From: Longimicrobiales bacterium
GTDB lineage: Bacteria; Gemmatimonadota; Gemmatimonadetes; Longimicrobiales; Gaopeijiaceae
Direction: 5' to 3'
Assembly (NCBI GenBank): GCA_028278645.1
Contig: JANQDZ010000044.1
Coordinates: 1-47,066 of the forward strand
Length of the DNA: 47,066 nucleotides
In this document: piece after piece, positions 24,204-38,257 of the stretch
Position numbering within the stretch: position 1 is the stretch's first letter
How the letters are laid out: each line of letters starts with the position of its first letter
Position numbers and translations under genes: made by a program
Notes under the pieces: generated by a model
Database searches by the model: none
Told to the model about the DNA's origin: nothing
The model's input: only the letters and a program-made list of their open reading frames with translations

Positions 24204-25949
24204 TCAGTGGGCGTGACCGTGGCTGTGATCCCAGCCCAGGCCCTCACGGATTTCGGCAACGAACCGCCGTAGGCCCCGGCGAGCGATAGAAGCCCCGAAA
24301 AGGAGCACCAGGCCGGCAAGGCAAATGAACTGAAGCGCCGAAGGCGCTTCCTCGGTAAGCTCGGCCAGACTGGGAACCGCGAGCGGCGGCAGGACGAGGT
24401 CGATGGACAACCCGGCGGCCACCGCGAAGGCTACCAGAACGGCGGCGAAGGCTCCAGCGGCCTGCCGTCCGTGGAGACTCGACAGCAACCCAAGCGTTGA
24501 TAGGTTGGTGGCGGGTCCGGTGATGAGGAAAGCGATTCCAGCCCCGGGAGAAAGCCCGGCGGCGAGGAAGGCGGCCACAAGAGGCGTGGCCGAGGCTGCG
24601 CATACGTAGGTGGGGAATCCAAGGGCCGCGAAAAAGACGACGGCCACGGGAGATGGGAGGCGAGCCAGCCACCCACCGTCGAGCCAGGGAGCCACCAGCG
24701 CGGCGACACCCAACCCCAAAAGGATCCAGGGTGCGGTATGGTCGACGACCTCGCCGGTGCCGGTGACCAGTGCGGATCGAAGGCGCGCCTTCAACCCGAC
24801 TCCTACCCTCCCCATCCGGTCCTGCTCAGGTGGGGCGAGGTGGGCTTTGAGCGCCCCCCCCACCCACCAGCCCACGAGGAGGGCCGCCGCTCCGGCAGTA
24901 ACGAGGCGAACAAGTGTAACTTCGGGCCCCAGGAGTGGGATGGAAAGGAGGATAGCGTCCAGTCCCAACTCGGGGGTGGCGACCAGAAACGCTATGGCGG
25001 CGGCGGGAGGGGCTCCCCTGGAGATGAGGGAACGATAGAGGGGCACGACGCCGCAGGAGCAAATGGGGAACGGTAGCCCCACGAGCATGCCCCGGCCCGC
25101 TTGGCTGAGCGGTCCTCCCCCACCCATCCAGCGGATGGATGCAGAGGGAAGGAAGGCGGAGAGCAAGCCAGCGAAGAGGTAGGCCAGGAGCAGGGCCGGT
25201 GCGCTCTCGGCAGAGATAACAAAAAGCCGGTTCAGAAATGGATCTGGACCATGACCGGCCGCGGCCTCAGGCATCACCCCCATGATCACGAGGAGTCCGA
25301 TGGCCGCCAGTGCACCCCATCCCTCGGCCCGGGGCTCCCCACCCTTGGGGAGGGCATAACCCCGGTGGGTAACTACATGGACCAAAGACCCTCCTACCAC
25401 CGCTTGGTACAACGTCACGAGCTCCGATGAACCCAGAAGCCCTGTCACTACGGCGCCGAAGGAGAATCCGATGGCCGTCGCGACCATGAGGGCGCCCAGT
25501 GCGGCTACGCCGCTCCATCGCCCAGCCGCCCGGGTCACCAGCCACCACACCGCGATCCCCACGGGGAGTCGATGCAGGATCACCGCCAGGGCCAGTGGGG
25601 AAGGGGCGCCAGGGTCCGTGATGGTGGCCAGTGCCGTTCCATCCAATGCTGCGTGAATGGCCAGGCCCGTAAGTCCCAGGACAAGCCCCCATCGATCCGT
25701 CTGCCCCCGGACATCCCGTGTGAGGCGTTCCAGTGCCACCGGGAGGAAGAAGCCGGCGACGACGCAAGCGAGCACCGCAAGATTCCGCTGCTCTATTGCT
25801 TCTGGAACGAAGAGAAGGAAAATGAGCCCCGGGACGGAGGCCACGACGAAACCGTCCAGGGCCGCTGCCAGCCCCGGGCGTCGACGCATTCGTGAAAGAG
25901 CGGCCGGTCCCAAGGCGAGAGCGGCCAAAGCGATAAGGAGATAGCTCAT
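24204..25949 (-). CDS. ZIP-like / SO_0444-ArsP-type permease fusion, probable metal efflux
   Basis: Polytopic membrane protein of 581 residues. Residues about 1-200 look like a ZIP fold: VPEAIE in helix 2, HAALDG (His99, Asp103) like ZIP helix 4 HNxxDG, and HRLPVG (His126) like helix 5 HExPxE, with the usual Glu and second His/Glu replaced. Residues about 240-560 are a COG0701 permease (ArsP, SO_0444 Cu/Zn efflux) with ICSCGVVPLYRSL (Cys297, Cys299) and TYVCAASATPLVAAFLAAG. The C terminus is HSHGHAH. It is third in the operon after an ArsR regulator and a His-rich protein, which fits export of excess zinc or copper. Start ATG has no clear ribosome site. Domain identities are from motif recognition; direction of transport is inferred. 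Confidence 0.8.
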   Translation of the reverse strand: MSYLLIALAALALGPAALSRMRRRPGLAAALDGFVVASVPGLIFLLFVPEAIEQRNLAVLACVVAGFFLPVALERLTRDVRGQTDRWGLVLGLTGLAIHAALDGTALATITDPGAPSPLALAVILHRLPVGIAVWWLVTRAAGRWSGVAALGALMVATAIGFSFGAVVTGLLGSSELVTLYQAVVGGSLVHVVTHRGYALPKGGEPRAEGWGALAAIGLLVIMGVMPEAAAGHGPDPFLNRLFVISAESAPALLLAYLFAGLLSAFLPSASIRWMGGGGPLSQAGRGMLVGLPFPICSCGVVPLYRSLISRGAPPAAAIAFLVATPELGLDAILLSIPLLGPEVTLVRLVTAGAAALLVGWWVGGALKAHLAPPEQDRMGRVGVGLKARLRSALVTGTGEVVDHTAPWILLGLGVAALVAPWLDGGWLARLPSPVAVVFFAALGFPTYVCAASATPLVAAFLAAGLSPGAGIAFLITGPATNLSTLGLLSSLHGRQAAGAFAAVLVAFAVAAGLSIDLVLPPLAVPSLAELTEEAPSALQFICLAGLVLLFGASIARRGLRRFVAEIREGLGWDHSHGHAH

Positions 25950-26061: not shown

Positions 26062-26403
26062 TCAGGCCTGCTTCAGGGGCCCGTGGTCGTCACAGTGATC
26101 GCCGTGGGGATGATGCAGGTGGCCATCGACCAGGTAGTCGATATGGTCGCCATGGGGCACTGCCGGATGCCCGCAGCCTGGCCCGTGGACGTGGTCCGGA
26201 TCGTGGGCCGTGCAGTCGTGGCGGATGCAGCCGTCCGGGTTGATGTCCGAGACCTCGATGACGTGCTCGTCATAGTGGTCCTCGTGAGCACAATGAAGAT
26301 GCCCGTTGTGCAGGTAACCCTTATGGTCCCCGTGCTTGACGGCGACATGGCCGCAGTCCGGGCCGTGCACGTGGTCGTGGTATTTACAAATCTCGTGTGC
26401 CAT
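26062..26403 (-). CDS. His/Cys-rich two-repeat metal-binding protein
   Basis: Cytoplasmic-looking protein of 113 residues (no signal peptide) with 26 His and 7 Cys. Two copies of a unit, residues 11-47 and 71-107, sit exactly 60 residues apart: HVHGPxCGHxAVxHGDHxxYLxxGHLH, then HxDHxxxH. The linker (48-70) has CIRHDC. The composition points to zinc, nickel or copper buffering. The DNA of the two copies has diverged, so the duplication is old. It lies 14 nt after the ArsR gene and 112 nt before the permease in one minus-strand operon. GAGG precedes the ATG. Similar short proteins exist in databases as hypotheticals to my knowledge; no function is established. Confidence 0.8.
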   Translation of the reverse strand: MAHEICKYHDHVHGPDCGHVAVKHGDHKGYLHNGHLHCAHEDHYDEHVIEVSDINPDGCIRHDCTAHDPDHVHGPGCGHPAVPHGDHIDYLVDGHLHHPHGDHCDDHGPLKQA

Positions 26404-26417
26404 GCCTCAAGTCCTCA

Positions 26418-26768
26418 CTATCTGGGATGGATATGAACGTAGGGATCGGCGTGGTCCAGGACGTTCCGGATCAAAGTCTCTACATGGCCGTCCGCCAACC
26501 GGTAAAGCATCTCTCGCCCTTCCCGCCGGCGCGTCACCAGGTCCTCCGACAGGAGAACCCTTAGCCGCTGGGACGTGGTGGACATCTCCGCATCCGTACG
26601 ATCAGCGATCTCCGACACCTGGTGTTCGCCGGAGAGGAGAAGCTCGAGGATGCGCATTCGGGCGGGGTCACCTGCAGCGCGGAGCATACCCGCTGCCCGA
26701 TCGATGACCGACTGAGGGGCGTGGTCCCGGGCCGGAGGTGGAGGTAAGGTTTGGGGATTCACAATCAC
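26418..26768 (-). CDS. ArsR/SmtB-family metal-sensing repressor
   Basis: Winged-helix repressor of 116 residues. The DNA-reading helices are in QVSEIADRTDAEMSTTSQRLRVL, and the wing follows (RREGREMLYRL). The C-terminal helix has Asp93-x-His95-x10-His106, the alpha-5 zinc-sensor pattern of SmtB/CzrA/ZiaR; the fourth ligand position (+3) is Pro, with Asp108 next to it. There are no Cys residues for an ArsR-type arsenic site. GTG 26768 is the longest start; GTG 26762 has better spacing to AAGGG and may be real. It is first in the operon with the His-rich protein and permease, probably releasing an operator at 26786-26807 when zinc binds. Confidence 0.9.
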   Translation of the reverse strand: MIVNPQTLPPPPARDHAPQSVIDRAAGMLRAAGDPARMRILELLLSGEHQVSEIADRTDAEMSTTSQRLRVLLSEDLVTRRREGREMLYRLADGHVETLIRNVLDHADPYVHIHPR

Positions 26769-26785
26769 GCCCTTATTTCATCAGT

Positions 26786-26807
26786 TCATCAATTCATGAA
26801 GTGATGA
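26786..26807. promoter_or_regulatory. 22-bp near-perfect palindrome, likely ArsR operator
   Basis: The left half TCATCAATTCA matches the reverse complement of the right half (TGAAGTGATGA) at 10 of 11 positions. It lies 18 nt upstream of the ArsR GTG and so would overlap the promoter. SmtB/ArsR repressors bind this kind of imperfect palindrome. A partial further copy (TTCATCAGTTCATC) starts at 26778. The rest of 26808-26919 shows no gene. Confidence 0.7.
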
Positions 26808-26919: not shown

Positions 26920-28185
26920 TCAGATCCGGAGTGAGAGCCCGTCGTGGAGGGCGGTCCGGTAGGCCTTCGCAGCCGGAACGAGCCCGGCGGCGAGCCCAAG
27001 GACGACCACCGCGCCCACGTACGCGAGTTGGACGCCGTCTGGAGGCTGAATGGGGATCAGCAGGCCGAACCGCCCTTCGAGCCAGGGCTGCAGCCCGATG
27101 ATGCCGGCGTACACCAAGCCGACGCCCAGGAGCGCGCCGACGGACGACAAGAGCCCAGCTTCCAGCACTAGAAGCGATACGATCTTCTTCGGTCCGGCAC
27201 CCAGGGCACGCAGGATGGCCATCTCGCGACGCCGTGCCTCGAGGGAGGTGTAGATCGACACCAGCATACCGAGAATCCCGACCAGCACGACGAATCCCGA
27301 GATGACTCTCAGGCCGTCTTCCGCATAGCCGATCCCTCGCCACATCTCCGAGAGGGCGACACCCGGGATCACCGCCGTCAGCGGCTCCTCCTCGTGGGTT
27401 GAGATCTCGCGTTGGAGTTGGAGGGTGAGGGCCCGGGACTCGGCGCCGAGGAAGAAGGAGGTGATTTGGGAGACCGGGACCTCGTCCATCGCCAGCACGT
27501 CCTCAGCCAGTACCTCCTGCCCGGGCATGGGCGGAGCTCCCGACTCCCACCCCAAGTGGATTGCCGAGATACCCTCCAGCGTAACGTAGATGGCCCGGTC
27601 CACAGGGGTAAAGGTGCGGTCGAGGATGCCGACGACCTCGAAGGGCATGTCGTCGTGGTTCATGAAGCCAACGGCGCTCATGCCGTGCGTTACGGCGATA
27701 CGATCCCCGAGCTCGTAGTTCAGGCGGGCAGCCACCTCGGCTCCGAGCACGAGATCAAAAACTCCGTGTGCGGTGCGTCCTTCGATCAGCGTAATCGGCT
27801 GGCCGCCACGGTACCGGTAGTGCTCATAAAACGACCCGTTCGTGCCGATCACCCGGAAGCCGCGGTGGCTATCCCCTAGTGCATAGGGAATCGTCCAAGC
27901 CACCGCTGGGTGCTCGTCGTACTTCCGCCACGTTTCATGGGAGATGTTGGCGACCGGAGAGCCCATGCCGAACACCGAGTAGAGCATGATCTGGATGGTT
28001 CCGCCCCTGGAGCCGACGATGAGGTCCGTGCCGCTGACGGTGTTCGAGAAGCTCTCTCGCATGCCGGTCCGCACGTTCTCGACGCCGACGAGCAACCCCA
28101 CGCTCAGCGCGATGGAGAGGACCGTCAGAAGAGTCGTGAGCAGCCGGTTCGCCAACGACCGGAGCGCTAGATGAGGAAGGAACAC
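26920..28185 (-). CDS. FtsX/MacB-like ABC transporter permease, zinc uptake type
   Basis: ABC permease of 421 residues. An N-terminal membrane helix (about 12-36) precedes a large periplasmic domain (MacB-PCD-like, about 40-280), followed by three membrane helices with the FtsX segment SLEARRREMAILRALGAGPKKI. The start is GTG, 2 nt after the ATPase stop. The gene set DUF3299, ATPase, FtsX-like permease and DUF2796 is the same as P. aeruginosa PA4063-4066, a Zur-regulated zinc uptake system. By fold it resembles MacB/LolCDE mechanotransmitters more than a classic ZnuB importer, so how it moves zinc is unclear. Confidence 0.88.
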   Translation of the reverse strand: MFLPHLALRSLANRLLTTLLTVLSIALSVGLLVGVENVRTGMRESFSNTVSGTDLIVGSRGGTIQIMLYSVFGMGSPVANISHETWRKYDEHPAVAWTIPYALGDSHRGFRVIGTNGSFYEHYRYRGGQPITLIEGRTAHGVFDLVLGAEVAARLNYELGDRIAVTHGMSAVGFMNHDDMPFEVVGILDRTFTPVDRAIYVTLEGISAIHLGWESGAPPMPGQEVLAEDVLAMDEVPVSQITSFFLGAESRALTLQLQREISTHEEEPLTAVIPGVALSEMWRGIGYAEDGLRVISGFVVLVGILGMLVSIYTSLEARRREMAILRALGAGPKKIVSLLVLEAGLLSSVGALLGVGLVYAGIIGLQPWLEGRFGLLIPIQPPDGVQLAYVGAVVVLGLAAGLVPAAKAYRTALHDGLSLRI

Positions 28186-28187
28186 GG

Positions 28188-28877
28188 TCAGGCTCCGGCC
28201 CGGTTGAGTTCCGCCAGGGACAACGACCGGTCGAAGAGATCGGACAGCGTCAGGTCGTGGCTCACGAAGAGCAGCGTTGATCCGGCGTCCTGGACATTCT
28301 GGAAGAGCAGCTCAAGGAAGCCGCGCCGACGATCCTGGTCGAGTGCAGATGTCGGCTCGTCGGCGATGATAAGCTCGGGGTCGCCGAGGAGGGCCCGGGC
28401 TGCAGCGACGCGCTGTTGCTGTCCAACGCTCAGACGGGTCACCTTCTCGTTTAGCAGGTCCTCGATGCCGAGGTGGGCCGCCGTCTCCGCGACGGCTTGG
28501 TGGAGGGAGCCGCTCAACCGGTTCCTGCGGGCTGCGGTGATCCGGACCGGCAGCGCGATGTTGTCTCTCACATCCAAGTAGGGGATCAGGTTGAACATCT
28601 GGAAGACGTACCCGATGTGGGCGGCGCGCAGCCGATCTCGGGCCGGGGACGAGAGGGCACCGACATCATGCCCCAGGACCTGGAGGGTGCCCGGCGGCGG
28701 TTGCAACACCCCGGCCACCAGGCTCAGGAGGGTGGTCTTACCGCATCCCGAGGGTCCGTACAGAAAAACCCGTTCCCCCGTCCCGATGCTCAACTCGGGA
28801 AGGTCCAGGACAGGGTCTCCCCCGGGGTAAGAGAATGTCAGGTCGTGGGCGAGAACGCAGGCGTCTCCGTCCGTCAC
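28188..28877 (-). CDS. ABC transporter ATP-binding protein (LolD/MacB type)
   Basis: ATPase subunit of 229 residues. It has Walker A GPSGCGKTT (about 41-49), the Q-loop YVFQMFNLIP, the signature LSVGQQQR (canonical LSGGQ with Val), Walker B LIIADEP, the D-loop SALD and the H-loop SHD. The start GTG overlaps the DUF3299 stop by 4 nt (GTGA), and its stop lies 2 nt before the permease start, so the three genes are one operon. YVFQMFNLIPYLDVRDNI is typical of the LolD/MacB class that pairs with FtsX-fold permeases. Confidence 0.93.
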   Translation of the reverse strand: MTDGDACVLAHDLTFSYPGGDPVLDLPELSIGTGERVFLYGPSGCGKTTLLSLVAGVLQPPPGTLQVLGHDVGALSSPARDRLRAAHIGYVFQMFNLIPYLDVRDNIALPVRITAARRNRLSGSLHQAVAETAAHLGIEDLLNEKVTRLSVGQQQRVAAARALLGDPELIIADEPTSALDQDRRRGFLELLFQNVQDAGSTLLFVSHDLTLSDLFDRSLSLAELNRAGA

Positions 28878-29464
28878 CGCTCGTACTTCTCGACCTTAAC
28901 GCCGGTGAGCTTGAAGCTCACGGTGGTATAGATGTTTTCGGTCTCCTCGATCTCGAGCTTCCCGTGGATCCATACCGGATCCCAGAACGAGACCGGAACC
29001 TTCTCGTTTTCGTTCATCACAACATAGACGAGTTGGTTGGGAGGCGGGGGTGGCACGTGGACACAAGCCCCCACGTATGGGACAAGGAGGAACTCCGATG
29101 CGAACTCCGCGAAGTCCTCAAGCGGAACCATGTACCCGGGAACCTTCACCTCTTTCCCCAGGAAGGGTTTGAGTTCCTTCGAGATCTCACCGGTCATGTA
29201 GTTGAGGCCGGCAAGGACCTCCCACCAGACCTCGGGCGGTTTGTTTGGAGCTGCGAAAACCGACGGGGTCGTGGTCTCCTCCGGCGCCAGGGGCACAGAA
29301 TCGGATGCGTGGCCGAGCACGCTGCGCGGACCCGCGGTCAGGATCAGGAGAACGGCGAACGCCGCGATGGCTCCTTTAACGAATCTACGGACGGAGGAGA
29401 ATCGAATCTTACTCATGGGCCTTGCGGACGAAGATGGTCTTTGCTTCTTTTTTTGCGAATCCAT
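28874..29464 (-). CDS. DUF3299 exported protein
   Basis: Periplasmic protein of 196 residues. A basic N terminus and hydrophobic helix (about 30-50, ending in SVLG) form a signal or anchor. The DUF3299 core follows: LGKEVKVPGYMVPLE, EFLLVPYVGACVHVPPPPPNQ and PVWIHGKLEI. PA4066-type DUF3299 proteins lie with this ABC transporter in zinc uptake operons. The single Cys and neighbouring His in GACVHVPPPPPNQ could bind metal, which is speculative. In-frame Met starts exist at 29464 and 29416; neither has a strong ribosome site. First gene of the minus-strand uptake operon. Confidence 0.85.
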   Translation of the reverse strand: MDSQKKKQRPSSSARPMSKIRFSSVRRFVKGAIAAFAVLLILTAGPRSVLGHASDSVPLAPEETTTPSVFAAPNKPPEVWWEVLAGLNYMTGEISKELKPFLGKEVKVPGYMVPLEDFAEFASEFLLVPYVGACVHVPPPPPNQLVYVVMNENEKVPVSFWDPVWIHGKLEIEETENIYTTVSFKLTGVKVEKYER

Positions 29465-29504: not shown

Positions 29505-30272
29505 TTGTTCCAGAATCCAAAGACACGAACACTGCATGTGGATTGTGATCCGGCTCGACGCCGGTGGGTGAAAAAGGGTCGGCAGTTGACCACGGTCCTC
29601 GCCTTGGGCCTCGGACTGGCCGCCTGTTCACCGGGTGAAGAAGCCGGTAGTGGCCCGATCGTGGAGGGAGATGCCATCGGGGTCGAGGGGGCCCACGAGC
29701 ACGGCGTGGTTCGTCTCGGCCTCGCGGTCGACGGGACGGACCTCACGGCCAGTTTCCTAGCAACCTCCGATGCGCTCTTCGGTTTCGAACACACCCCTGC
29801 ATCCGAGGAGGAAATTACACACGTGCGGGAGATGCTTGCCCGCGTGCAGGCGGAGGCCGGAGGGCTCATCATGCTCCCTGCCGAATCCAACTGCTCGGTC
29901 GAGTCGGTCGAGATCGTCGAGGCTCCTGACGTCCATTCCGAGGGCGACGATACTCACGACCATGCCCACGACCACGACGAGACGGCCCACGAGGACTCGG
30001 AGGACCATGACGAGGGCCACGACGAAGGGGCCCATGCCGACCACGATGACCATGACCATGATCATCCTGGCGAGGAAGACCACTCAGCGTCGGGGCATTC
30101 CGACGTGCGGTTCGGCGTGTCGTGGACGTGCGGAGAATCCCCGGAAGGTCGGGCCGCCTCGCTTCAGTTCGGCGACCTGTTCACGAACATCGAGTTCGTC
30201 GACCTGACGATAATCACCTCCGTGGGCCAGGCTGCCGCCCGCGTCGCTCCCGAAACGTCGTTCCGCTTCTGA
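29505..30272 (+). CDS. zrgA: ZrgA/DUF2796 family zinc-binding lipoprotein
   Basis: Exported DUF2796 protein of 255 residues. The lipobox LAAC (Cys41) predicts a lipoprotein. The conserved core is GAHEHGVVRLGLAVDG, FGFEHTPASEEE and CSVESVEI, with the C-terminal half VRFGVSWTCGESPEG. Between the halves is a His/Asp/Glu-rich linker (about 143-195, many HDH and DHD units) that should bind zinc. The start is TTG 29505 with GGAGG at 29491-29495. GTG 29568 would give a more normal n-region but has no site. The gene is divergent from DUF3299 with only 40 nt between starts; I found no Fur/Zur-type box there. Family role: zinc delivery to the co-encoded transporter. Confidence 0.9.
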   Translation: MFQNPKTRTLHVDCDPARRRWVKKGRQLTTVLALGLGLAACSPGEEAGSGPIVEGDAIGVEGAHEHGVVRLGLAVDGTDLTASFLATSDALFGFEHTPASEEEITHVREMLARVQAEAGGLIMLPAESNCSVESVEIVEAPDVHSEGDDTHDHAHDHDETAHEDSEDHDEGHDEGAHADHDDHDHDHPGEEDHSASGHSDVRFGVSWTCGESPEGRAASLQFGDLFTNIEFVDLTIITSVGQAAARVAPETSFRF

Positions 30273-30344: not shown

Positions 30345-32693
30345 TCAGAAGTAGACGCGGTACAACAGTCGAACCTCTCTGCCCGGGAGCGGTGCCAGTT
30401 CTTTGATGAAGGAGGTGTGGGGGCGAGCCTCTTGATCCGTCAGATTCCGTCCCTGTAGCACGATGTCGTGGGTCAACCCACCGGTGAAAATCCGGTAGCC
30501 GATGGATCCGTTCAGAAGGGTGTAGCCTTCCGTTTCCTCTTCGAAGGGGGATACCCGGTCCTGCTTGGCTGCTCGAGTCAGGCCAAGATCCCCCTTGAAA
30601 GCGCCGCCATCGTACCGCAAGCCGGTTCCCAACCGAAGGGGAGGAATCCGAGGGAGGTTCTGGTCCTCGTCGGTCAACTCGGCCCGGACATAGTCGCCCC
30701 AGCCCTCCACCAGGAGGTGGTGACGGCCCCGGTGGATTAGATCGAATTCGAGAGCGGCCTCGAAGCCAACGAAACGCGCGTCGGCCTGAGTGAACTGCAA
30801 AATCGGGAGGCCGTCTTCCTCCCCGCCTGTGTACTCCTGGTAGATGAACCCATTGAAGAGGTTCAGGAAACCCGTTAGCTCGCTCCGAAAGGTCCCGTGG
30901 CTGAGCCGAAGGGTGGCATCCATGGAGTAGGCCGATTCCGGATCAAGATCCAGATCTCCGATCTCGTAGGCGCCCGTGGCGATGTGGGGCCCGTCGGAAA
31001 ACAGCTCCTCCAACGAGGGCAGCTTCACGGAACGAGCCAAGGAAACAGCTAACCCCAGACGTTCGGAAGGGGTCCAGCTCAACCCTCCGGACGCCGAGAA
31101 CCCCACGTGGTCCTCTTCGTATCCGGCGGTTTTCTGCTCCATCTGCTGGAACTCGCCCCGGGCTCCCAACTGGTACCGGACATCGCCGGATCGGAACTCC
31201 TCGTAGACGAACCCGGCATAGCTCAGGCTGGTGGAGGGCGGGACGAAGGCCTCTTCGCCGAGGGCCTCGAAGTCCCTCCCGCTCACTTGAACACCCGCCG
31301 CGCCGACCATCGACTCGCTCAGGGCGTGCTGAAGCTCCAGCCGACCCTCCCACTGTTCATTCTGGAAGCGGGTTCCCACGGCACCTTCCTCGAACTCGGT
31401 GTGCTCGTAGTCGGCCACGCCGAAACGCCCCTTTAGCCCCTTCACGGCACCGCCACCAAATCGCCAGGCCCCTTCCAAATCGATCCGGCGCTGCTCGAGG
31501 TTGATGGTCACTCCCTCTTCGCCGTGCTCCTCCTCGTTTTCTCCTTCTTCTTCGTGCTCGTGCTCATGCTCGTGGGCGTGCTCGTGTCCTGGTACGCCAT
31601 AATCCGAGTCCAAGCCGGAAACAGAGACCCCGAGGAAGCCAGAGCCTCCGATCCAGGAGACGCCGAAGGCTCCCCGGGTTGTCTCCACTGCGGAGTTCGC
31701 TAGGACCCCCTCCACCTCTTCCTCCTCGTCATCGTGGTGCTCACCCTCATGCTCGTGGTCATGTTCGTGATCGTGTTCGCGCTCGGCGAAGCCCGGAATG
31801 TTGTAGTCCTCGGTTCCCCGGTCGAGCCCGCTGAGGTGCCAGGCGAATCGACCTCCCAAGCTTCCGTTCAACTCGAAAGCGCCTGTCCGCTCATCGGCCA
31901 CCGTCCCTCCAAGGGCCGTGACACTTCCGGAAACGCCGGATCCGGGTAACTCCCTGGGAATCCTCTTGTCGAGGACGTTTACGATTCCCCCTACCGCCGA
32001 ACTGCCGTAAAGGAGGGTGGCGGCGCCCCGAATGACCTCGATTCTCACCGCCGCCAGAGGCTCGAGGGAGACGGCGTGATCCGGACCCTGGGCAGAAACA
32101 TCCCCCGAACCCACACCCCCTTCCAGGACCCGGACTCGATCCCCCCCGAGCCCCCGGATCAGGGGCCGGCTGGCTCCGGGGCCGTTATACGTGGAGGCCA
32201 CGCCCGGCTCTCCGGCCAATGTCTCCCCTAGGCTGCTCTGCACGGCTTTGGCCAGGTCCAGCCCTGTCAGGGCCGACGTGGGCTGGTAGGACTCGGATCG
32301 TTGAACGGATGCAGGTCCTGCGCTGACCACCAACTCATCCAAACGAAAAAGCGGATCCAATTCCAGCCTCACCTGCGTCGTTTCCCCGGGACGGATGTCG
32401 ACCCGTACCGTCGTTCGCCCAGAACGGAGGCTGTTGGCCTCCACCACATAGCTTCCCGGGATGAGGTTCTGGAACATGAAAGCTCCGGATCCGTCCACCG
32501 TCGTGCGCCGGGATAGATCGGTGATGCGGACCTCTGCATCGGTGGAGGGAGTCCCATCGGCGGTTACCACCTGTCCGGTGAGGGATCCCGTGGGCTGGGC
32601 CCAACTCTTACCGGGAGAAAGGAATAGCAAGGCACTCAGAAAAAGGAACAAAGGGGCTGCCAGGATGCTGCTTCTTATCGTTATCAAAGTCAT
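30345..32693 (-). CDS. TonB-dependent receptor with His-rich loops, probable zinc importer
   Basis: Outer-membrane receptor of 782 residues. It has a signal peptide (ending SWAQ, about 33), a carboxypeptidase-regulatory-like domain (about 37-112), a plug domain (about 140-250, with RPLIRGLGGDRVRVLEGG and GAATLLYGSSAVGGIVNV) and a 22-strand-type barrel ending in aromatic LYRVYF. Two predicted outside loops are very rich in His/Glu/Asp, about residues 298-330 (EHDHEHDHEHEGEHHDDEEEE) and 367-395 (GHEHAHEHEHEHEEE). ZnuD-type zinc receptors carry such loops. GAGGAG precedes the ATG. It is probably the last gene of the operon led by the MerC-like gene and controlled by the box at 33773. Confidence 0.92.
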   Translation of the reverse strand: MTLITIRSSILAAPLFLFLSALLFLSPGKSWAQPTGSLTGQVVTADGTPSTDAEVRITDLSRRTTVDGSGAFMFQNLIPGSYVVEANSLRSGRTTVRVDIRPGETTQVRLELDPLFRLDELVVSAGPASVQRSESYQPTSALTGLDLAKAVQSSLGETLAGEPGVASTYNGPGASRPLIRGLGGDRVRVLEGGVGSGDVSAQGPDHAVSLEPLAAVRIEVIRGAATLLYGSSAVGGIVNVLDKRIPRELPGSGVSGSVTALGGTVADERTGAFELNGSLGGRFAWHLSGLDRGTEDYNIPGFAEREHDHEHDHEHEGEHHDDEEEEVEGVLANSAVETTRGAFGVSWIGGSGFLGVSVSGLDSDYGVPGHEHAHEHEHEHEEEGENEEEHGEEGVTINLEQRRIDLEGAWRFGGGAVKGLKGRFGVADYEHTEFEEGAVGTRFQNEQWEGRLELQHALSESMVGAAGVQVSGRDFEALGEEAFVPPSTSLSYAGFVYEEFRSGDVRYQLGARGEFQQMEQKTAGYEEDHVGFSASGGLSWTPSERLGLAVSLARSVKLPSLEELFSDGPHIATGAYEIGDLDLDPESAYSMDATLRLSHGTFRSELTGFLNLFNGFIYQEYTGGEEDGLPILQFTQADARFVGFEAALEFDLIHRGRHHLLVEGWGDYVRAELTDEDQNLPRIPPLRLGTGLRYDGGAFKGDLGLTRAAKQDRVSPFEEETEGYTLLNGSIGYRIFTGGLTHDIVLQGRNLTDQEARPHTSFIKELAPLPGREVRLLYRVYF

Positions 32694-33222: not shown

Positions 33223-33651
33223 TCACGGTGCGGGCTGTTCCTGGACGGAATCCGCCTCACACACATCGCAGGCCCCTTTTCGGCAGATCCGTGCGCTCCA
33301 GAGCATTCCTGAAGCGAATACAAGGCTCCCGAGGGGGGAAGTCACGAACTCTGGGATCGGTTCCAAGAGCCCCATCAATGATGCGGCCCAGATCCCAGCG
33401 CCCGCTGCAAGTAGCCCAAGAACGGTGCCCTGCTGCCGGGCCGGACCCAGCAAGGTGATCCCACCACCCAGTACCACCGTGACGCCCAGGGCCCACCACT
33501 CGGTGGCCTTGCTCAAGGCCAGAATCGGGATGGCCGTAACCACAAAGGGGGTGACGAGGCAATGGATCCCGCATAAGAAGGCGGCCAGGGCCGCCCAGCG
33601 GGCCGGCCACTCCAATCGACTGTAGGCCTGGGCCTGGCTTCCGGTCGTCAC
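33223..33651 (-). CDS. MerC-domain membrane protein
   Basis: Four-helix membrane protein of about 142 residues with the MerC-family motif CGIHCLVTPF in helix 1 (the CxxxC pair). The C-terminal tail is rich in Cys (CRKGACDVC). MerC proteins carry mercury in mer operons, but chromosomal members are found beside zinc-uptake genes, which suits this context better. I place the start at GTG 33651, 8 nt after AAGGAG; the GTG at 33660 overlaps that site. First gene of the predicted MerC, small protein, TonB receptor operon. Confidence 0.85.
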   Translation of the reverse strand: MTTGSQAQAYSRLEWPARWAALAAFLCGIHCLVTPFVVTAIPILALSKATEWWALGVTVVLGGGITLLGPARQQGTVLGLLAAGAGIWAASLMGLLEPIPEFVTSPLGSLVFASGMLWSARICRKGACDVCEADSVQEQPAP

Positions 33652-33772
33652 GATGTACACTCCTTGAGGTGGTAGGCTTTTCGCAGTGCGTCCGGCGCGA
33701 ATGCCGGCGCGACCATGCCTCCGGTGGGCGATGCGTTATTAAAAAGGGCGCCGGGACGAACCGGCGGGTACA

Positions 33773-35869: not shown

Positions 35870-36028
35870 TATCCAGGGCCTTCCGGTCCGGGCGACGGAA
35901 ATGCAGGTAAAAGTAGGCCCGCACATGAGATGAGTTTCCCACTTTGGTCGCGGAACCATCTCCGGTACACGGCGTACTAGAGGTCCTTGATCAAGTCCCA
36001 CATCGTGGCAGAAACAACAGTAGGAACC

Positions 36029-38257
36029 ATGTCCATCACGTCCATCCTCCGATCAATTCTGTTTGTTCTGGCGGCGATTGGGAGCGTTGCCGGGTCTGTG
36101 TTCGGTCAGGAACCCGCCCAAGGACCTCACGTGGAGGGGCTGATCCGGGCAGCGGAAAGCGGGGAGCCGCTTGCTGGTGCCTACATCACGTTGGTGGGAT
36201 CCGGCCGGACGGCCGTCACTCACGGAGACGGGCATTTCCACATCCGGGTGCCGGGATCGCCTCCCTGGTATTTAAAAATCGAGCGTCTCGGGTATGGGAG
36301 CGTGTTGGTCCGGGTGGACAACCGCACTTCGGCCTCGCTTGTCGAGGTGTCGCTTGAGCCCGCCGCCCTGGACGTGCCCGGGCTGGTGGTGATCGGATCG
36401 ATGACGACTCGGGGCACCGACCAGGCGCCACATCCTGTCGATGTGCTAGCGGGAGAGGAGTTGCAGCGTCGCCTCCAGGAAACACTGGCCGCCACCCTTG
36501 CCGGGGAACCCGGCGTGACGGCAACAAGCATGGGGCCGGCTACGGCCCGCCCTGTCATCCGCGGTCTGAGCGGAGATAGGGTTCTCGTTCTCGATGACGG
36601 TGTGCGGGTAGGAGACGTCTCCAACAGCGGCGCCGACCACGCCACCGCAACGGACGTCTCGGCAGCCCGGCGAGTGGAGGTCCTTCGGGGTCCGGCAGCG
36701 CTCTTATACGGAGGCAATGCCCTGGGTGGAGTGGTGAACATCATCCGGGACGAAATCCCCACCGATGAGGTTCATCACTTCCATGGCACCTCCACACTGC
36801 AGGGCCGCACGGTGAACGGCGGTGTCATGGGGAGCGTGTCAGCGTTGATGCCACTGTCCGCGCGAGTGCCCGTGCGGTTCGAGTTCACGGGCCGGACCGG
36901 AGGGGACCTGGACACCCCAGAGGGGCCGCTGAAGAACACCCAAATCGACAACTGGAGCGCGGGTGCGGGATCGGCCATCCTGTCGAACTGGGGCTCGGTC
37001 GGCGCGGCCTTCCGGTACTACCAGAACAACTACGGGATTCCGGGCGGCTTCCTAGGCGGGCACACGGAGGGCGTGCGGATCGAGATGGAGCGAACCTCGA
37101 GCCGGGCGCGCCTTTCGCTGGACCAACCGGTGGGCCCCTTCCAGAGCATCCAAGGGGATGTTGCGTATACGTGGTATCGGCACACGGAGATCGAGCCACC
37201 CGACATATTGGGAACCTTCTTCAAGCGCCAGGTGATCAGCGGTGACTTGGTGGGCCGTCACAGCGGCATCACGTCTTTCACGTCAGGCGCAGTCGGGCTC
37301 CGAGGAGCGTTTGAACGCCACGACTTCGCCGGATCCCTCTCCACTCCGGACACTCGCCTCTCCACCCTGGGTCTATTCGCACTGGAGGAGGCGACCCTCG
37401 GCCCCTTCACCGTGGAAGGGGGACTGCGTTGGGATTGGGCCCGGTCGGATCCTCTGCAAAAGGACCCGGATTCGGACATCGGCGACGTGCGGGCCCGCAC
37501 CTTTCAGGCGGCTTCCGGCTCCTTCGGAGCCCTTTGGCGGGTGACCGACGGTGTGGCGCTGGGCGGTAGCCTGGCCCGGGCCTTCCGGATCCCCGATGTC
37601 GCGGAACTCTATTCCGAGGGACCACACCTGGCAGCCTACATCTACGAGGTCGGCAGCCCCGATCTCGACACCGAGGTGGGAACGGGCTTCGACCTGTTTC
37701 TGCGCCTGGGCGGAGACCACCTCAGGGCCGAGGTCACCGCGTTCCACAACCGGATATCAGGCTACATCTACCCGCGGGAGACGGGCGACACCAGCCGTGT
37801 GCAGCTCCCCATCTTCCAGTTCTCCGGCGAGGACGCACGCCTCACAGGATTCGAGGGCCTCATGGAGTGGAACCCTTGGGACGGATTGGTCCTCTCAGGG
37901 TCCACCGCCTATGTCCGCGGCAGCCTGGTGGATGATGATCTACCCCTGCCGCTTATCCCACCCCTTCAAGGAAGGGTTGCGGCCCACCTCACCAAACCGG
38001 CCTGGTTTGTCCGTATCGAGGGCGTCGCGGCCGCCCGCCAGGACCGCCTCGGGGAGTTCGAGGGCCCCACAGCGGGTTATGTCATCCTGAACGTCTCGGC
38101 CGGAGTTCGTCACACCATCAAGGGCCGCCTGAATGCCCTGACGTTGACGATGGAGAACGCTACGGACCGCATCTACAGAAACCACCTCTCCAGGGTCAAG
38201 GAAATCATGCCCGAGGCCGGGAGGGGGTTCACAATTACCTACCGCGTCGTGTTCTAA
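36029..38257 (+). CDS. TonB-dependent receptor, probable zinc or metallophore importer
   Basis: Outer-membrane receptor of 742 residues. The signal peptide ends in VFGQ (about 26). A carboxypeptidase-like domain (about 30-115) precedes the plug (about 120-240, with RPVIRGLSGDRVLVLDDGVRVGD and GPAALLYGGNALGGVVNI) and a barrel ending in Phe (TYRVVF). It resembles the receptor at 30345 but lacks its His-rich loops; only short HHFHG and GGHTEG are present. The ATG 36029 has AGGA upstream and gives a proper signal peptide; 35987 does not. The lipoprotein gene follows 73 nt later. Control by a Fur/Zur-type box is predicted. Confidence 0.9.
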   Translation: MSITSILRSILFVLAAIGSVAGSVFGQEPAQGPHVEGLIRAAESGEPLAGAYITLVGSGRTAVTHGDGHFHIRVPGSPPWYLKIERLGYGSVLVRVDNRTSASLVEVSLEPAALDVPGLVVIGSMTTRGTDQAPHPVDVLAGEELQRRLQETLAATLAGEPGVTATSMGPATARPVIRGLSGDRVLVLDDGVRVGDVSNSGADHATATDVSAARRVEVLRGPAALLYGGNALGGVVNIIRDEIPTDEVHHFHGTSTLQGRTVNGGVMGSVSALMPLSARVPVRFEFTGRTGGDLDTPEGPLKNTQIDNWSAGAGSAILSNWGSVGAAFRYYQNNYGIPGGFLGGHTEGVRIEMERTSSRARLSLDQPVGPFQSIQGDVAYTWYRHTEIEPPDILGTFFKRQVISGDLVGRHSGITSFTSGAVGLRGAFERHDFAGSLSTPDTRLSTLGLFALEEATLGPFTVEGGLRWDWARSDPLQKDPDSDIGDVRARTFQAASGSFGALWRVTDGVALGGSLARAFRIPDVAELYSEGPHLAAYIYEVGSPDLDTEVGTGFDLFLRLGGDHLRAEVTAFHNRISGYIYPRETGDTSRVQLPIFQFSGEDARLTGFEGLMEWNPWDGLVLSGSTAYVRGSLVDDDLPLPLIPPLQGRVAAHLTKPAWFVRIEGVAAARQDRLGEFEGPTAGYVILNVSAGVRHTIKGRLNALTLTMENATDRIYRNHLSRVKEIMPEAGRGFTITYRVVF

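Follow-up and report, generated by a model that had tools for sequence, protein, structure and literature searches.

The window, i.e., the whole stretch of 47,066 nt analyzed here, carries an ORF on its reverse strand (positions 24204–25949) that starts with ATG and encodes 581 amino acids with no internal stop codon. Its product consists of two different transporter folds in one uninterrupted chain, a ZIP-like half followed by a permease half of the ArsP_1 type. Genes for an ArsR/SmtB-family regulator, a His-rich protein, and ZrgB-, ZrgC-, and ZrgE-type proteins lie upstream of the fusion gene on the same strand, and a ZrgA gene lies on the opposite strand (Table 1). No ZrgD was identified in the window's Zrg-type cluster.

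The regulator has a D-x-H-x10-H arrangement in alpha-5 (by eye), with the last acidic residue of the D-x-H-x10-H-x2-E pattern one residue early; the homologous regulators beside two other fused genes, L093 and L096, have the exact pattern. An inverted repeat precedes the regulator gene. It is only a candidate operator, because no such repeat was seen by eye upstream of the regulators at L093 and L096. A promoter scan found nothing. The His-rich protein matches no family in Pfam or NCBIfam; relatives of it are encoded directly after an ArsR/SmtB gene on Pantoea and Pediococcus plasmids, and after genes for a GTP-binding protein and a WD40 protein in Paraburkholderia. Elsewhere in the window, a further metal-linked gene (33226–33660, reverse strand) encodes a MerC-like membrane protein (PF03203), and two TonB-dependent receptors are encoded near the zinc cluster (30345–32693, reverse strand; 35987–38257, forward strand), the first with His- and Glu-rich stretches.

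Table 1. Features of the fusion gene and its neighborhood in the window
Feature	Position	Strand	Basis
Fusion permease, ZIP-like half + ArsP_1 half	24204..25949	-	ORF and translation; one chain in ~48 proteins
ZIP-like half, residues 1–229, eight helices	25263..25949	-	Profile-profile, AlphaFold2, BbZIP fold match
TM4 motif H99-A-A-L-D103-G104 (BbZIP H177, N178, E181)	25638..25655	-	His99, Asp/Glu103 in 128/128
TM5 motif H126-R127-L-P-V130-G131 (BbZIP Q207, D208, E211)	25557..25574	-	His126 in 128/128; Arg127, Val130 in 112
TM7 end H191-V-V-T-H195	25365..25379	-	His191 in 128/128, His195 in 110/128
TM7–TM8 loop, probably cytosolic	25335..25364	-	Alignment, loop charges
Permease half, residues 236–570, ArsP_1/SO_0444-like	24240..25244	-	PF03773; NF033936 below cut-off; ArsB fold match 235–520
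CSCG, residues 297–300	25050..25061	-	Cys297, Cys299 in 48/48
YVC, residues 448–450	24600..24608	-	Tyr448, Cys450 in 48/48
His-rich 113-aa protein	26062..26403	-	ORF; homologs beside fused L093, L096
ArsR/SmtB-family regulator with SmtB-like alpha-5 His pair	26418..26768	-	NF033788 over cut-off; homologs beside L093, L096
Candidate operator, inverted repeat	26778..26807		15-nt arms, 87% complementary
ZrgB-type (MacB/FtsX) permease	26920..28185	-	PF02687, PF12704; role by analogy with Vibrio zrgB
ZrgC-type ABC ATPase	28188..28877	-	PF00005
ZrgE-type DUF3299 protein	28874..29464	-	PF11736, E 5e-32
ZrgA family zinc-binding protein	29505..30272	+	PF10986, E 1.7e-33

A conserved fusion

The initial annotation described the product as a permease resembling a ZIP domain fused to an SO_0444/ArsP-type domain, and profiles and fold agree on both identities. 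An AlphaFold2 model of the fusion (77 sequences) has a pLDDT of 90.2 and a pTM of 0.88, with eight helices followed by a second bundle. The motifs on which that annotation relied are all found in the translation: VPEAIE (48–53), HAALDG (99–104), HRLPVG (126–131), and VVGGSLVHVVTH (184–195) in the first half, and CSCG (297–300) and YVCAASATP (448–456) in the second. Unfused relatives exist for each half, and neither Pfam nor NCBIfam has a model that covers the whole chain. The initial annotation knew of no described fusion like it; none came to light among 5.39 million open papers either, and searches for a ZIP/ArsP fusion, or for COG0701 with zinc, yielded nothing on point.

Some 48 non-redundant proteins, spread over several phyla, share the complete architecture, so the fusion reflects more than chance. 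There is practically no chance that an error in sequencing or assembly merged two separate genes: no point in favor of this was found, the frame is uninterrupted, and the recurring fusion includes that in the isolate genome of Acanthopleuribacter pedis. Conservation of the fusion refutes such an artifact. The fusion is real and conserved and, as far as could be found, undescribed. Both halves belong to known superfamilies, and each departs from the canonical members of the curated family closest to it.

The first half is a ZIP homolog

ZIP proteins are known for metal import. The Pfam Zip model (PF02535) gives only a sub-threshold match to the first half (residues 93–194, 16.6 bits against a cut-off of 35.1, E 0.005). 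When the half was checked separately by profile-profile comparison, it matched nine true ZIPs at 96.5% (E 7.6e-10, 176 columns), with seven other families as controls reaching at most 1.5% each. PDB searches with the single sequence, or with a profile against PDB sequences, found no ZIP; the relation is visible only by profile-profile comparison and by fold. A Pfam search of the stand-alone ZIP-like proteins returned no Zip match, and two stand-alone relatives match PF02535 at 1e-6 and 9e-6 per genome. No canonical ZIP was found in the same genome as the fusion, which therefore duplicates none.

The modeled helices of the ZIP-like half span residues 2–21, 25–53, 57–76, 78–108, 118–142, 144–172, 176–195, and 206–225. 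BbZIP structures match residues 1–229 with Z up to 12.6 over 213 residues and a Foldseek probability of 1.00, at weak Foldseek E-values of 0.12 and above. For a stand-alone relative modeled alone (L066, 202 aa), the ten best PDB matches are all BbZIP (best E 6e-3); the VIA Z of this model, 7.9, is insufficient alone to decide. The ZIP assignment of the initial annotation therefore holds, but its extent does not: TM8 (206–225) belongs to the ZIP half, which runs to ~229 rather than 205. The TM1–2, TM3–4, TM5–6, and TM7–8 loops are positive, fitting the ZIP orientation, and are probably cytosolic, judging from these charges. In other fused members, the aligned TM7–TM8 loop is His-rich and up to ~80 residues long. 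Two stand-alone ZIP-like proteins (L131:5995-6741 and L171:3012-3758) match the profile in two stretches with ~20 residues between them.

One metal site is kept and another is replaced

We aligned the window protein with BbZIP by eye and counted residues in 128 sequences (68 fused and 60 stand-alone, some near-identical). Five residues are invariant in all 128: His99, Asp/Glu103, His126, His191, and Glu74. The first three occupy the M1 ligand positions (BbZIP H177, E181, and Q/H207, which is Q207 in BbZIP itself), and Glu74 in TM3 corresponds to D144, the release residue; His195 corresponds to H275. The M2 ligand positions N178 and D208 are Ala100 and Arg127, and the bridging E211 is Val130. 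Position 127 is Arg in 112/128 and Gln in 16/128, and position 130 is Val in 112/128, Glu in 7/128, and aliphatic in all but those seven. The residue at the position of E276 is non-acidic in the window protein.

The initial annotation had listed His99, Asp103, and His126 as kept and the paired Glu as lost, and the alignment bears out both lists. Absent from those lists were the invariance of His191 (TM7) and Glu74, and the replacement of an M2 ligand by Arg127; because of these features, the metal site appears from the alignment to be rewired and held constant, rather than decayed. With the ligands N178 and D208 and the bridging E211 replaced, the first half is a ZIP homolog and a non-canonical ZIP. 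Like BbZIP and ZupT, it has the eight-helix fold, the TM4 HxxxD/E, the TM5 His, and the TM3 acid; unlike them, it has PVG in place of PEG, the new invariant TM7 His, and a joined permease.

Transport in BbZIP takes place at M1, and disruption of M2 lowers it only modestly (PMC11549095). The partial dispensability of M2 leaves room for a bifunctional protein, in which an elevator motion of the ZIP half itself continues to transport zinc, giving an importer and an exporter in one chain that cooperate or act as an exchanger. The full eight-helix fold, the retained M1 ligand positions and TM3 acid, and the presence of the same residues in stand-alone relatives (60/60) all fit such a protein. Nevertheless, we consider it rather unlikely, because H177A/E211A removes M1 in BbZIP (PMC11549095) and the E211 position is almost always aliphatic here. 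In addition, D144 and E276 both matter for BbZIP transport (PMC9278863), and the latter position has lost its acid in the window protein; Arg127 would also neutralize the site on which, judging from the BbZIP work (PMC11549095), the charge-compensation mechanism depends.

At the other extreme, the ZIP half could be an inert scaffold whose only contribution is to help the permease half fold or dimerize, given that scaffold helices make the BbZIP dimer (PMC9278863) and that several metal ligands are replaced. This is unlikely: a scaffold would need none of the five invariant residues, which are kept even in stand-alone proteins lacking a permease. Since these residues persist where the permease is missing, the ZIP half probably performs a function in its own right.

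The second half is an SO_0444-like permease

The last part of the protein had been assigned to the COG0701 permeases, and PF03773 (ArsP_1) matches residues 245–515 at E 7e-36 (124.3 bits, above the cut-off of 32.3). The best NCBIfam match is the SO_0444 Cu/Zn efflux family (NF033936), with which the permease half shares the invariant CSCG and YVC..TP landmarks. Unlike known members of that family, which are ~350 aa long without a ZIP half, the fusion scores 174 bits, short of the equivalog cut-off of 300, and its substrate could therefore differ. Other fused members score 213–219 bits, and a stand-alone protein, L098, passes the cut-off. Cys297, Cys299, Glu327, and Cys450 are invariant across the 48 sequences that cover the permease half. 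SO_0444 is required for Shewanella growth under Zn or Cu stress (PMC3219624), and a Nitratiruptor gene of the family is induced by Cd and Cu (PMC10092412).

The fold of the permease half best matches ArsB (PDB 10tp; Z 13.9, 268 residues), with Z of 10.8–13.9 over ~260–280 residues for ArsB and other ion-transporter-superfamily elevators (including 4r0c and VcINDY). Sequence identity is ~10%, and this likeness of fold implies no shared function. The fusion unites two elevator-type folds within one chain. In one 534-aa permease (L076:5439-7043, reverse strand), a different and apparently shortened membrane part replaces the ZIP half.

Genomic neighbors

The Vibrio Zrg operon is a zinc-uptake system under Zur control (PMC9817125). 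The window's neighbors correspond by family to ZrgA, ZrgB, ZrgC, and ZrgE, whereas descriptions of the Vibrio operon include no ArsR regulator, His-rich protein, or fusion permease. In other genomes, some genes were called by a simple codon score, such that neighbor lists may include wrong-strand ORFs; key neighbors were verified by tblastn or Pfam. Genes for ArsR/SmtB, the His-rich protein, and ZrgE co-occur with the fused genes L093 and L096. Fur-family and COG0523 GTPase genes lie near many fused genes, and some fused genes have PCuAC copper-chaperone genes nearby.

The copper-chaperone genes, together with the invariant CSC and YVC cysteines, would suit a protein of the same architecture that exports mainly a different soft metal or a metalloid compound (Cu, Cd, As(III), or an organometal); ArsP_1 includes organoarsenical exporters. 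We regard this as quite improbable for the window, where the fusion gene has Zrg-type zinc genes and the gene for an SmtB-like regulator as its neighbors.

Stand-alone ZIP-like genes have neighbors of their own. A CDF zinc exporter gene lies 14 bp away at L116 (4839-6525), is divergent at 35 bp at L154, and is nearby at L078 and L080; at L147, a ZrgB-type permease gene is 16 bp away. The stand-alone genes with CDF neighbors group together on the tree and may all derive from a single ancestral arrangement. A link to iron was rejected: FeoB and DtxR/FeoA-type regulator genes occur near many Gemmatimonadota stand-alone genes, but on the opposite strand, and were unseen near fused genes.

Distribution and history

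Among 395 genomes of the phylum Gemmatimonadota, genera belonging to three families carry the fusion, and others encode the ZIP-like half by itself. When 84,980 species genomes were scanned, further fused members came from Acidobacteriota (including A. pedis), Myxococcota, Planctomycetota, Latescibacterota, and a proteobacterial bin. Removal of near-copies leaves 48 fused and 48 stand-alone sequences, a few cut by contig ends, with the window's own sequence extra. Presence is patchy: of two other genomes of the same genus, one gives just a weak match to the permease, and the other, which is 67% complete, gives none. Neither the full protein nor the ZIP half matched plasmids. In one genome, residues 1–69 of the ZIP half are encoded a second time (G197:C37:31503-31706), ~1.7 kb before the full fused gene.

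The fused and stand-alone labels change only twice on the tree, compared with a mean of 31 after shuffling (0/500 shuffles as low). When the tree is rooted with true ZIPs, fused forms are basal and stand-alone forms have two separate origins: one in Gemmatimonadota and a few neighbors, without TM8 and with a His-rich tail at the end, and the other in Gammaproteobacteria, with TM8 retained. The fusion is likely the ancestral state, and no more than likely since the root region is poorly resolved.

Proposed role

We propose, with a probability of about 0.5, that the fusion is an exporter, most likely of Zn(II) and possibly of Cu or Cd, in which an ArsP_1/SO_0444-type permease is joined to a ZIP-derived metal-loading or metal-sensing half. 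Zinc handling is suggested by the metal-responsive repressor, the His-rich protein, and an efflux-type permease whose Shewanella relative is protective against zinc and copper. The COG0523 GTPase and Fur-family genes around many fused genes, and the CDF and ZrgB-type neighbors of stand-alone genes, add to this zinc context. The ZIP half would be a metal-recognition or loading part and not an importer, because Arg127, a fixed positive residue, stands in place of the second metal site, which has been lost together with the bridging Glu. Both the coupling of the halves and the direction of transport are our inference. Against export, the Zrg-type neighbors form an uptake-type system, which works in the opposite sense. 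The sub-cut-off SO_0444 score of the permease half and the shifted final acid in the regulator's alpha-5 motif also weigh against the proposal.

Under this proposal, excess zinc would cause the SmtB-type repressor to open an ArsR/His-rich protein/fusion operon, and the His-rich protein and the cytosolic TM7–TM8 loop would gather cytosolic zinc. Zinc would then bind the single site of the ZIP half (His99, Asp103, His126, and perhaps His191), and the zinc-bound half would load or gate the permease half, which would move the metal out past Cys297, Cys299, and Cys450. More tentatively, it is possible, if doubtful, that the ZIP-derived family as a whole is an exchangeable metal-sensing or loading part, ancestrally fused to ArsP_1/SO_0444-type exporters and later freed beside CDF exporters and Zrg-type importers.

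We know of no earlier case of a ZIP fold as part of an exporter. If the proposed role is correct, an exporter has taken over a ZIP fold to read or load its metal, retaining one of the two metal sites and replacing the second. The small ZIP-like proteins, a sizeable family that mostly goes unrecognized by Pfam and NCBIfam, would then have a function open to experiment.
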